Below are positions 2,224-29,145 of a stretch of 32,367 bases of DNA, piece by piece (positions within the stretch are counted from its first letter, which is position 1; every line of letters starts with the position of its first letter). The DNA is taken from assembly GCA_945866215.1 (NCBI GenBank), contig CAMBGQ010000019.1:1-32367 (forward strand). Direction: 5' to 3'. Below the pieces are notes generated by a model. It had not been told where the DNA came from and did no database searches. It was given only the letters and a program-made list of their open reading frames with translations. Source of the DNA: Opitutus sp. GAS368. Lineage in GTDB: Bacteria > Verrucomicrobiota > Verrucomicrobiia > Opitutales > UBA953. Both the position numbers and the translations under genes were made by a program.

Positions 2224-2864
2224 GCCTGCGAACGCTGGCGCTGGCGGCGGTTCTTGATGTAAAGCCCGATGCCGGTGAAGAGGATCGCCAGGCAGAGCAT
2301 CGTGCCTCCGCAGAGGATCAGCATCCTCATCCCCAAAGGATCGAGGGACTCATGGGCCTGAATCAGTGGCGATTCGTCGCCCGCGACCATCATCACCCAG
2401 CGGGCCTTCGCGCCCGGCTTGGTCTCGTCGACCAGCCAGAGGAGCACCGTGTGCGGGCTTTCGTCCGGTAGGCGTAGTAGGAAGTTGCGCGGCGAAGGCG
2501 TCCAGCGCCACTCCGCGCTCTCGAGGCGGTAGTCCTTCGCGAGTTCTTCCGGCGTGTGCTGGAAGGGCGAATCGGTCTCGAGTTTCGTGGACGAGGAGAA
2601 GTCCGGCGAGCCCGCCGCTTGCGTGAGCGGGAAGAGATCCTTGCCGGTCGAGATGATGAAAAGCCCTTCGGCGACCTTCGCCAATTCGGCGCGCTCGCGG
2701 ATGTTGAAGTTCGCTTCCAGATCGGCCGTCACATTGAGAGAGCATTCGCCGTCGGCATGCATCGTCAGGCGCGCCAGGAGCACTTCGCCGTTATGGGCGC
2801 AGACGAACAAGGGGAGCACGAGGGCTCCCCAGGTTACGACCAGCTGGCGCAGCGCGCGGATCAC
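2220..2864 (-). CDS. Small exported protein with C-terminal membrane anchor, function unknown
   Basis: I do not recognise the family. With the GTG start at 2864-2862 the protein has 214 residues: a hydrophobic N-terminal signal (RALRQLVVTWGALVLPLFVCA), about 150 polar residues rich in Glu and Asp, then one transmembrane helix (GTMLCLAILFTGIGLYI) and a short basic tail (KNRRQRQRSQA). This predicts a periplasmic domain anchored by its C-terminus. The GTG overlaps the TGA stop of the upstream propeller gene by four bases (GTGA), a classic coupling arrangement, so I prefer it to the ATG at 2903, which would overlap that gene by 43 bases. The HNGEVLLARLTMHADG segment resembles small sensory or metal-related exported domains only superficially. 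It is cotranscribed with, and probably depends on, the propeller protein at 2861-3865. Confidence 0.7.
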   Translation of the reverse strand: MIRALRQLVVTWGALVLPLFVCAHNGEVLLARLTMHADGECSLNVTADLEANFNIRERAELAKVAEGLFIISTGKDLFPLTQAAGSPDFSSSTKLETDSPFQHTPEELAKDYRLESAEWRWTPSPRNFLLRLPDESPHTVLLWLVDETKPGAKARWVMMVAGDESPLIQAHESLDPLGMRMLILCGGTMLCLAILFTGIGLYIKNRRQRQRSQA

Positions 2865-3865
2865 TTGCGATTCCAACGCAGCACGCGACCGAAGGTGTTC
2901 CACTCCGTCTCGAGGATGTTGCCGTCGTTATCGAAAGTGATGCCGTGGGGCGAGGTGACGACGCCTTCGCGCCAGTCAGCCGGCTTCACGCCAGGGGTGT
3001 TGGTTTCCTTCTTCGTGCCGTTGGCGCCGGTGTTCTCGTTGGAGCCGAGGTCGGCGACCATCTTACCTTCCTTGTTCCAGACCGAGACGCGACCGGCAAT
3101 TTCAGCGACGCACATTAGCTCGCCGTGGAAGGAGGCAGAGGAGGGATTACGTAGGCCCGTGTTGGCGATCATCTGCGGGTTGGAGCCGTCGAGGTCGACG
3201 TGGAACATGCGGTTGTTGCCGCGGTCGAGGCAGAGCAGGCGGGCCGGGCTGAAACGCGTGTCGACGAAGACCTTGTGCGTGTTGGCGAAGCCCTTGCCGT
3301 CCACCATCTGCGTGGGGCCGCCGAAGACCGACTTGAACTTTCCGTCCTTGTCGAAGACGAAGATCCAGCTCTTGCCGTAGCCATCGACGATATAAATGTC
3401 GCCGTTCGGGGCCACGTCGCAGCTCGTGAGCTTCAGGGCGTTGACGGATTTGCCCGCCTTGTCCTTGGTCTTACCCTTGTCGGCCGGGAAGGCGTCGGAC
3501 TTGATTTCCATGACGACCGTGCCGTCGAGCTTGGCCTTGATGAAGCGCTGCTCGCCGAGCACCGCGCCGTAGAGGAACTCGCCATCGGCCGACTTGCGGA
3601 CCGTGAAGCCGTGGAGCGACATCGGCAGGGCGAGGGTCTTTACGTACTTGCCGTCCTTGCCGTAGACTTGGATGCCGGCGTCCTTTTCCTGGACGCTGAC
3701 GTAGATGAGGCCGGCGGAGTCGACGGCGATTTCACCGTGGCCGTTGCCGATGGTCTGCTTGCCGGGAGGCGTGCCGAGGAAGTTGGGCAGCAGTTCGTAT
3801 TTCACTTCGGCGGCTTGGGAGAGGGAACACACGGCGAGGAGGGCGAGGAGGCGGAGGGTGGGCAT
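2861..3865 (-). CDS. Exported six-bladed beta-propeller protein
   Basis: 334 residues from the ATG at 3865, which begins a clear signal peptide (MPTLRLLALLAVCSLSQA). Longer in-frame readings only add low-complexity Arg/Pro sequence from the repeat-rich leader. The body alternates Gly/Asp-rich turns with YVSV, IYIVDGYG, FVFDKDGKF and LLCLDRGNNR strands, an NHL/6-bladed-propeller pattern. The C-terminus reads SPHGITFDNDGNILETEWN, so the closing blade is complete. Likely periplasmic or surface-located; the ligand is unknown. It is the first gene of a two-gene unit, coupled by a 4-bp overlap to the anchored protein at 2220-2864. Its start codon is preceded at 11 nt by a C-rich hexamer tract (see 3877-3904). 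The divergent DUF1080 gene carries a matching tract, so the two may be controlled together. Confidence 0.8.
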   Translation of the reverse strand: MPTLRLLALLAVCSLSQAAEVKYELLPNFLGTPPGKQTIGNGHGEIAVDSAGLIYVSVQEKDAGIQVYGKDGKYVKTLALPMSLHGFTVRKSADGEFLYGAVLGEQRFIKAKLDGTVVMEIKSDAFPADKGKTKDKAGKSVNALKLTSCDVAPNGDIYIVDGYGKSWIFVFDKDGKFKSVFGGPTQMVDGKGFANTHKVFVDTRFSPARLLCLDRGNNRMFHVDLDGSNPQMIANTGLRNPSSASFHGELMCVAEIAGRVSVWNKEGKMVADLGSNENTGANGTKKETNTPGVKPADWREGVVTSPHGITFDNDGNILETEWNTFGRVLRWNRK

Positions 3866-3876
3866 GGGGTGATGAA

Positions 3877-3904
3877 GGGGTTGGGGTAGGGGTAGGGGGT
3901 GGGG
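3877..3904. repeat. Hexamer tract, G-rich on plus strand (copy A)
   Basis: Five runs of four or more G separated by TT, TA, TA and T. On the minus (mRNA) strand this reads as CCCCTA-type hexamers and ends 11 nt before the ATG of the propeller gene. The plus strand meets the general G-quadruplex pattern. An inverted counterpart lies at 3954-3981. Confidence 0.85.
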
Positions 3905-3953
3905 TTGTAGGTGGCAAACGGATTTCCGCGTCTCTCTTTTATTGTCTCTCCTG

Positions 3954-3981
3954 CCCCGACCCCTATCCCTACCCCTACCCC
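3954..3981. repeat. Hexamer tract, C-rich on plus strand (copy B)
   Basis: Units CCCCGA, CCCCTA, TCCCTA, CCCCTA, then CCCC, ending 11 nt before the ATG of the DUF1080 gene. It matches the tract at 14847-14875 except that the latter has one more CCCCTA unit, as expected from slippage or unit gain and loss. Confidence 0.85.
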
Positions 3982-3992
3982 AAAACAATAAG

Positions 3993-4610
3993 ATGACCTC
4001 CCTCCGTCTGCTCGCGGCTCTCGCCGCCCTCGTCGTTTCGGCCTCTGCCGCCGAAGTGAAACTCGAGTCCGCCTTCAATGGTAAGGACCTCGCTGGCTGG
4101 AAGACCTCCGGCCCCGACGCCTTCTGGACCGCCGCGGATGGCGTCCTCACCGGCGTCAACGATCTCGCCTTCAAAGATTACAAGAAGGGCAATATGCTCT
4201 ACACCGAGAAGTCCTACCAGGACGTCGTCATCGAGTGCGAAGTCCGCTTCAGCGGCGAGATCGACAGCGGTATCATGGTCCGCAAGGACGCAGCCGGTAA
4301 GAAGGATATCCAGATGCAGATCGGCGTGTCCCGTTCTCTGAAGAAGGACATGACTTGCACCTTCTACGTCGGCAAGTATCCCGAAGCCGGCTGGGCCCCG
4401 AAGGTCCCCGCGCTCTGGAAGAACGGCGAGTGGAACAAGGTTCGCTTTCAGGCCAAGGGCGACACCTACACCGTCTGGCTTAACGGCGAGCAGGTCACCC
4501 ACTATGTCGACGCCGGTTACCCCTCGGCCGCTCCGGTGGGCCTTCAAGTGCACGGCGGCGTGCAGATGAAGGTCGAATACCGCAACATCGCTATCGGCGA
4601 GATCAAGTAA
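3993..4610 (+). CDS. Exported DUF1080 (3-keto-disaccharide hydrolase-like) protein
   Basis: 205 residues: signal peptide (MTSLRLLAALAALVVSASA) followed by one concanavalin-like beta-sandwich domain of the DUF1080 family. Diagnostic stretches are FNGKDLAGWK near the mature N-terminus, DFxLECEVRF-like DVVIECEVRFSG, the DSGIMVR loop, NEWN-type NGEWNKVRF, VWLNGEQVTHYVD and the closing GLQVHGGVQMKVEYRNI. DUF1080 proteins are annotated as 3-keto-disaccharide hydrolases or as carbohydrate-binding sandwiches; the sequence alone cannot say which applies here. The start at 3993 fits the signal peptide; an upstream ATG at 3942 would place the translated repeat tract in front of it. The gene is divergent from the propeller gene and followed directly by a strong terminator. 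Confidence 0.88.
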   Translation: MTSLRLLAALAALVVSASAAEVKLESAFNGKDLAGWKTSGPDAFWTAADGVLTGVNDLAFKDYKKGNMLYTEKSYQDVVIECEVRFSGEIDSGIMVRKDAAGKKDIQMQIGVSRSLKKDMTCTFYVGKYPEAGWAPKVPALWKNGEWNKVRFQAKGDTYTVWLNGEQVTHYVDAGYPSAAPVGLQVHGGVQMKVEYRNIAIGEIK

Positions 4611-14754: not shown

Positions 14755-14846
14755 GAGGTCGGAATCGTTTCGGGTGACAGGTGGCGGCCCCGGGTGGCAG
14801 GTGGCGGGAATAGTTTCCCGCAGGGAAGGGTGATTTGACTCCACCA

Positions 14847-14875
14847 CCCCCGACCCCTACCCCTATCCCTACCCC
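14847..14875. repeat. Hexamer tract, C-rich on plus strand (copy C)
   Basis: Units CCCCGA, CCCCTA, CCCCTA, TCCCTA, CCCC, preceded by one extra C. The tract ends 7 nt before the ATG at 14883. It is the same array as 3954-3981 with one additional unit. Confidence 0.85.
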
Positions 14876-22436: not shown

Positions 22437-22501
22437 GGGCGAATAGAGGGATGGAGGGCTGGAGGGCCTGAGGTCAGGCGGGCCAGAAGGGAAGGCGTAA
22501 A

Positions 22502-24804: not shown

Positions 24805-24844
24805 GGGGGCACGTGGGCAAGGTGACACGGGGACACGGGGAAGG
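24805..24844. repeat. Degenerate octamer tandem repeat (five units)
   Basis: Units GGGGGCAC, GTGGGCAA, GGTGACAC, GGGGACAC and GGGGAAGG at period 8. They are related to the GAGGACAC array at 28811-28874. Confidence 0.6.
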
Positions 24845-26393: not shown

Positions 26394-26468
26394 GCTCCTG
26401 TATTTCAATGGATAGAATGCTGGCCTCCGAAGCCGGCGATTTGGGTTCGACTCCCAACGGGAGCACCA
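26394..26468 (+). tRNA. tRNA-Arg (CCG anticodon)
   Basis: 75 nt. The acceptor GCTCCTG pairs with CGGGAGC (one G-T pair). The anticodon stem CTGGC/GCCGG encloses loop CTCCGAA with anticodon CCG. T-arm GTTCGACTC and encoded CCA are present. It decodes CGG, a useful codon in a GC-rich genome. Confidence 0.95.
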
Positions 26469-26507
26469 CTTTTGGGCGAGCTTAGCCCGCCAGGGACAGG
26501 GGCAGGG

Positions 26508-26631
26508 GTAGGGATGCGATTGCCATCGCATCCGTTCGACTCCGAGGCCGGAAGTCGTCGGCCCTTGGCTAGCCTCGGTTGATGTCTTGGCGTACCGGTT
26601 CAAACGGACGTGATGGCAATCACGTCCCTAC
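26508..26631. repeat. REP-like doublet 1 (inverted GTAG-footed hairpins)
   Basis: Left unit: GTAG, then a 9-bp stem beginning GGATGCGAT with loop TGCC (26508-26533). Right unit: the same layout on the other strand (26606-26631), stem GGACGTGAT. The two stems differ at two positions and both differences are compensated in the opposite arm, so base pairing is conserved. The 72-bp spacer holds a CCGAGGC/GCCTCGG inverted repeat. A G-rich tract (26493-26513) runs into the left foot. The right end lies 3 bp from the MFS stop codon. Confidence 0.85.
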
Positions 26632-28751: not shown

Positions 28752-28758
28752 ATTGAAA

Positions 28759-28777
28759 GGGTCGGGGTAGGGGTAGG
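28759..28777. repeat. Hexamer tract, G-rich on plus strand (copy D)
   Basis: G-runs GGG, GGGG, GGGG, GG separated by TC, TA and TA, which reads on the mRNA strand as C-rich CCCCTA-type units. It lies 7 nt upstream of the SGNH start codon. It is the fourth of four tracts placed at exported-protein starts. Confidence 0.8.
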
Positions 28778-28810
28778 AAAAGGCAGGGAGGGCGGGAGGG
28801 CAACAAAATG

Positions 28811-28874
28811 GAGGAAACGAGGACACGAGGGCACGAGGACAGGTGGACTCGAGGACACGAGGGCTGGAGGTATG
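28811..28874. repeat. Octamer tandem repeat (eight units)
   Basis: Period-8 units GAGGAAAC, GAGGACAC, GAGGGCAC, GAGGACAG, GTGGACTC, GAGGACAC, GAGGGCTG, GAGGTATG. Unit ends vary but GNGG is kept in every unit. It lies in the 394-bp gap between the SGNH and DUF5069 genes, which holds no gene. Confidence 0.8.
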
Positions 28875-28888
28875 AAAGCGAGGTTATG

Positions 28889-29073
28889 GCGGTTAGCGGA
28901 TAGCGGTTGGGGTAGCTGCATTTTTCGCCGCAGGGCGAAACCGGGTAGGGGCACGATTCATCGTGCACTCCGCAGGGGAGGGCGCGGCGTAGCCACGCCC
29001 CTACCTCGGGCCGCCCTGCGGCGGCCCAAATGTATCTTGTTTTTCTAACCGCTTACCGCCAACCGCTATCCGC
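28889..29073. repeat. Nested palindromic element around REP-like doublet 3
   Basis: Outer 16-bp perfect inverted repeat (28895-28910 and 29059-29074). The arms are themselves heptamer repeats: GCGGTTA, GCGGATA, GCGGTTG on the left; TAACCGC, TTACCGC, CAACCGC, TATCCGC on the right. Inside are a TTTCGCC-gcag-GGCGAAA hairpin (28923-28940), doublet 3 and a GGGCCGC/GCGGCCC hairpin (29008-29027). No gene is contained. Confidence 0.75.
28945..29004. repeat. REP-like doublet 3 (inverted GTAG-footed hairpins)
   Basis: Left unit: GTAG plus hairpin GCACGAT-tc-ATCGTGC (28945-28966). Right unit on the other strand: GTAG plus a 9-bp stem GGGCGTGGC with loop TAC and one G-T pair. It has the same architecture as doublets 1 and 2 but different stem sequences. 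Confidence 0.83.
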
Positions 29074-29145
29074 TCAGACCTATCTTGGGGTTTTGGCTTT
29101 CCTCTGCCATCTGTCCTCCGTCATCTTTTATCTAACCTTACTCCC

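Follow-up and report, generated by a model that had tools for sequence, protein, structure and literature searches.

The window, that is, the whole stretch of 32,367 nucleotides analysed here, comes from the genome of an uncultured Opitutae MAG (Verrucomicrobiota; 1.9 Mb, 85.5% complete). It contains a divergent gene pair. The minus-strand gene (2861..3865) encodes an NHL/6-bladed beta-propeller protein, as judged by a repeat match, and the plus-strand gene (3993..4610) a protein with a 3-keto-disaccharide hydrolase domain (PF06439), identified by a domain match. Both products carry an N-terminal hydrophobic leader and are expected to be exported. The space between the two genes holds two arrays of hexamers: array A, GGGGTTGGGGTAGGGGTAGGGGGTGGGG (3877-3904), is C-rich on the minus strand and lies in the putative promoter of the minus gene, and array B, CCCCGACCCCTATCCCTACCCCTACCCC (3954-3981), is C-rich on the plus strand and lies in that of the plus gene. 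Each is 28 nt long, which corresponds to 4.7 imperfect units, and each ends 11 nt before its own ATG (3865 on the minus strand, 3993 on the plus strand). No hairpin was seen by eye at this locus.

A previous sequence-only reading had described the two tracts by these coordinates, with a C-rich mRNA strand, equal distances to the start codons and, as the genes diverge, an inverted arrangement, and the strands and start codons bear this description out. It had also pointed out that the complementary strand matches the G-quadruplex (G4) pattern. This is correct as well, since the G-strands of A and of B each contain at least four runs of at least three Gs separated by short loops, so that G4 folding is possible. 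Within the units, C occupies positions 3 and 4 in 98-99% of cases, while T is kept at position 5 in 80% and A at position 6 in 86%.

Three further arrays are found in the window, two before gene starts and one past a tRNA gene. The array at 14848-14875 (plus strand) precedes a polysaccharide pyruvyl transferase-like gene (ATG 14883), whose predicted promoter consists of a -35 box TTGACT (14835-14840) and a -10 box TACCCC (14858-14863) on the same strand. Another (28758-28779, minus strand) lies 6 nt before the start codon of an exported GDSL-lipase-like gene. The last one is short (26499-26514, minus strand) and located downstream of tRNA-Arg(CCG) (26394-26468, plus strand), where it adjoins a hairpin and is followed by no gene start. 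The window also contains other intergenic tandem repeats made of 7- or 8-mers (24805-24841, 28811-28862, 29045-29074 and 22446-22484), several of which lie directly upstream of gene starts with a C-rich mRNA strand.

How common are such arrays? Allowing up to two mismatches, CCCCTACCCCTACCCC matches the window 12 times, compared with 0.01 expected from dinucleotide-preserving shuffles, and the same MAG contains 61 16-mer matches at this threshold versus 8 for the reversed pattern. Within the order, 34 of 57 genomes have matches, nearly all of them from the window's own genus. There a genome has between 0 and 117 of them when at most one mismatch is allowed (about zero for the control) and most species are positive, whereas genomes of the other families of the order contain 0 to 2. 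Together with the sample of 800 kb described below, the shuffles, the reversed-pattern controls and the counts in the genome and the order rule out a chance origin. The CCCCTA runs between the two genes are thus one case among dozens in the genus and not special to this gene pair.

The sequence-only reading had linked the tracts to the exported nature of both proteins. While the hydrophobic leaders agree with export, the specificity does not hold, as arrays are also found before purH, mnmA, accA and an ABC-F gene. A modest enrichment of exported products is observed for arrays within 25 nt of the ATG (19 of 30 families versus 248 of 626 genes, p=0.013); none was found for arrays farther away. 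Gene-specific control of exported proteins was rejected as the main reading because arrays precede many cytosolic housekeeping genes.

An unbiased sample of 800 kb from a sister genome (G016) served for counting placements. Named records that share 94-99% protein identity with G016 are Opitutae MAGs. It contains 31 arrays versus 2 for the control, and 29 of the 31 are intergenic. The C-rich strand faces a start codon in 24 arrays and a stop codon in 5, usually abutting the stop. Upstream of starts there are 20 C-type and 4 G-type arrays in 324 leaders; after stops there are 9 G-type and 2 C-type arrays in 252 regions. Divergent spacers, 98 of 403, hold 15 of 43 arrays. When all families of 6-9-mer repeats are considered, 79 of 94 arrays turn their C-rich strand to the closest gene edge (45 of 49 at starts, 34 of 45 at stops). 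Other arrays form a second class 40-130 nt from the ATG; several of these directly precede a -35 box instead of covering the -10 box. About one sixth of arrays faces a stop codon without a promoter-like partner.

The leaders of these genomes have their own character. With gene starts and coding calls taken from a simple home-made script, Shine-Dalgarno-like 4-mers were found at 6 of 73 unambiguous starts. A search for 16S rRNA, aimed at a change in its anti-Shine-Dalgarno sequence, found none in ten genomes with masked stretches. Across the sister genome, TTGAC and TTGCC are strongly enriched 31-40 nt before the ATG, with TTGCC occurring 36 times in this bin compared with about 3 times per bin farther upstream. 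As the -35 boxes peak at this distance, most leaders should be short, and arrays ending 0-20 nt before the ATG would then occupy the spacer, the -10 box and the start region. In samples of three genomes (G011, G033 and G000), the near absence of Shine-Dalgarno sites is accompanied by a peak of C in the last three bases before the ATG.

The sequence-only reading had suggested aligning the leaders of orthologous genes. In such a comparison, arrays A and B are retained in most orthologs and the -35/-10 spacing is conserved in nearly all of them. For the minus gene, the predicted -35 box TTGCCA (3912..3917) reads TTGCC[TA], once TTGCGT, and each of the 18 distinct ortholog sequences found has it 17 nt ahead of TACCCC. 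This predicted -10 box (3889..3894), a unit of array A, is invariant in all 18, while the adjacent units drift. For the plus gene, 21 of 22 distinct ortholog sequences have TTG[TA]NN, corresponding to the predicted -35 box TTGTCT (3942..3947), followed by TAT after 16 nt, which places the predicted -10 box TATCCC at 3964..3969 in array B. The two predicted -35 boxes are 24 bp apart.

The same spacing recurs in other genes and also where the array is missing. Orthologs of the minus gene without an array have TAATTT or TACGCT at equal spacing from the -35 box. Upstream of purH, TTGACC-17-TA is found in 18 of 21 distinct ortholog sequences, and TTGAC[CG]-17-TACC persists in array-less species including G057, G061, G006, G066, G071 and G074. 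The pyruvyl-transferase gene shows the 17-nt TTG-TA spacing in 11 of 12 distinct orthologs and 16 nt in the twelfth; the distance from -35 box to ATG varies between 42 and 67 nt, yet that from -35 box to TA stays constant at 16-17.

Because the repeat has a period of 6, constancy of phase among the orthologs of one gene is in part trivial. What carries weight for a promoter is that a single unit is selectively conserved, that the spacing survives in species lacking the array and that the phase agrees among independent families. Over four promoters TA is kept at the -10 unit in 68, at the preceding unit in 17 and at the following unit in 36 of 73 distinct ortholog sequences, which are related and hence not independent observations. 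Among 13 independent gene families with arrays, 9 have TA in the 16/17-nt phase (p ~0.009). The arrangement resembles sigma70-type promoters in that the -10 unit is preceded, at 16-18 nt, by a -35 box conserved in orthologs; TACCCC and TATCCC share the TA of the -10 consensus TAnnnT but not its final T. In a genome-wide search for a -10 consensus, non-array genes showed only a weak excess of TA at spacings of 15-18, and many array genes lack a TTG box where it would be expected.

The conserved TTG-16/17-TA spacing, the selective conservation of TA in one unit and the array-less purH promoters lead us to read the locus as two back-to-back promoters of the sigma70 type, with short leaders and predicted -10 boxes inside the arrays, a reading to which we assign a probability of about 60%. 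The minus promoter would consist of TTGCCA, a spacer of 17 nt and TACCCC, that is, one unit of array A, and the plus promoter of TTGTCT, a spacer of 16 nt and TATCCC, one unit of array B. Each array would then span part of the spacer, the -10 box and the expected RNA start. In sigma70-type promoters the first transcribed nucleotide is expected some 7 nt past the -10 box, and the transcripts may accordingly begin near 3882 on the minus strand and 3976 on the plus strand, leaving roughly 17 nt ahead of either ATG. The DNA itself shows the arrays, where they lie, the conserved distance between the -35 and -10 boxes and the preferential retention of the -10 unit; we infer from it where transcription starts, which sigma factor acts and that unit number affects expression. 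Of the two roles proposed by the sequence-only reading, in translation or in transcription, the latter is supported by the -10-like unit that nearly all orthologs have 16-17 nt away from a conserved -35 box, and the arrays most likely act in transcription start rather than in the reading of the message.

The arrays probably expanded by duplication of units around TACC-type -10 boxes. Between species the array length varies from 16 to 29 nt for the plus gene and from 14 to 52 nt for the minus gene, and as these differences lie mostly beyond the -10 box, it is the leader length that changes: a different number of units would change how far the start codon lies from the promoter. The -10 role does not account for the arrays that face stop codons or for those 40-130 nt from the ATG. 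An extended version of the reading goes further, although we think it improbable. Promoters across the genus would have been rebuilt as GC-rich -10 arrays in which TACCCC is repeated and several units are each usable as a -10 box, giving multiple starts and leader lengths tuned by unit number in a lineage nearly devoid of Shine-Dalgarno sites, and a single process would add outward C-rich repeats at both intergenic edges as raw material.

Could the arrays act in the RNA instead? A G-poor leader might keep the start site unstructured for translation without Shine-Dalgarno sites or bind a pyrimidine-specific protein. The rarity of Shine-Dalgarno sites, the excess of C-rich over G-rich mRNA strands in the leaders and the many arrays that stop 5-15 nt before the ATG fit this idea. 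However, with the -35 box 41-57 nt from the ATG, the RNA is predicted to start inside or after the array and to include only its last one or two units; we do not favour a role in translation, as the larger part of the tract precedes this point. The equal polarity at stop codons, where initiation cannot be helped, also speaks against it, and we consider it the least probable of the explanations weighed here. A DNA structure is somewhat less remote but still unlikely: a G4 on the template strand, or an i-motif opposite, would aid melting or block the polymerase near the transcription start. The G-strand and the near-invariant C at unit positions 3 and 4 suit this proposal, and the rule for strand and position equals that of the G4-forming heptamers of Xanthomonas and Nostoc (PMC4692102). 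Yet in several species the purH array and its G4 potential are missing while the -35/TACC pair stays, the conserved TATCCC of the plus array interrupts a GGGG run and gives a better -10 box, and positions 5 and 6 are largely kept although G4 loops require no fixed sequence.

About equally unlikely is that the arrays are mostly passive, either as intergenic short tandem repeats or as remnants of REP-like hairpins with expanded GTAG feet, which overlap promoters incidentally. The other 6-9-mer families do occupy the same spaces with the same polarity, stop edges included, and palindromes ending in CCCTACC adjoin some arrays. On the other hand, arrays are kept at orthologous promoters in many species with one unit per array selectively conserved, and RAYT-like Y1 transposases were undetected in several array-rich, incomplete genomes. 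A REP/RAYT mobile element is hence unsupported (Y1_Tnp was undetected in the incomplete genomes G000, G012, G028 and G034); the arrays share with REP/RAYT elements the intergenic location, the GTAG/CTAC motif and, in some cases, an adjoining hairpin, but are not hairpins themselves. Terminal inverted repeats of an insertion element were also rejected: inverted pairs occur, but their interiors differ and the arrays lie at gene edges.

In phase-variable promoters, short tandem repeats between or beside the -10 and -35 boxes alter expression by slippage, and in the classical cases a change of units in the spacer breaks the register. The arrays described here similarly overlap the predicted core promoter and differ in unit number between genomes. 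Their 6-nt unit, however, preserves the register, and they are imperfect compared with the typical fast-slipping tracts. Another parallel is offered by the TAACTGA direct repeats of marine Beggiatoaceae, for which a translational role was proposed (PMC4679880). These are also forward-oriented, just before the start codons of many unrelated genes with few Shine-Dalgarno sites, but are neither C-rich nor G4-capable and have another unit length, and the evidence here points to the promoter.

The closest resemblance is to the G4-forming intergenic heptamers GGGAATC and GGGGA(C/T)T of Xanthomonas and Nostoc (Rehm et al. 2015, PMC4692102). Their G-rich strand is antisense less than 50 bp upstream of ORFs and sense less than 50 bp after stops. 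Like the arrays here, they are genome-wide intergenic G-rich short tandem repeats with conserved positions, G4-capable and with the same strand rule. The unit differs, GGGGTA being a hexamer from another phylum. The heptamers are under-represented between divergent ORFs, whereas the present arrays are common there; the under-representation is a trait of the published cases and not of this kind of repeat. That a unit keeps a conserved spacing to a -35 box, as seen here, is not described for the heptamers in the parts of that paper that were searched.

If the promoter reading is true, the core promoter itself can reside in short tandem repeats whose unit length spares the -35/-10 register, and slippage would alter the leader length while leaving the promoter intact. 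The outward polarity of G-rich intergenic repeats known from Xanthomonas and Nostoc would moreover be found again in a phylum unrelated to theirs, and there in several families of repeats together, which calls for a common cause.

Other sequences were noticed in the sister genome. Its 252 regions past stop codons are enriched in GGTAGG and GTAGGG. Three intergenic regions (L204, L206 and L216) contain, as judged by eye, palindromic REP-like hairpins with GTAGGG...CCCTACC feet, some of which abut hexamer arrays. In L202, L207, L210 and L216 there are (CACCTTTG)n arrays with a -35-like TTGCAC in each unit, often interrupted by a GC-rich hairpin.
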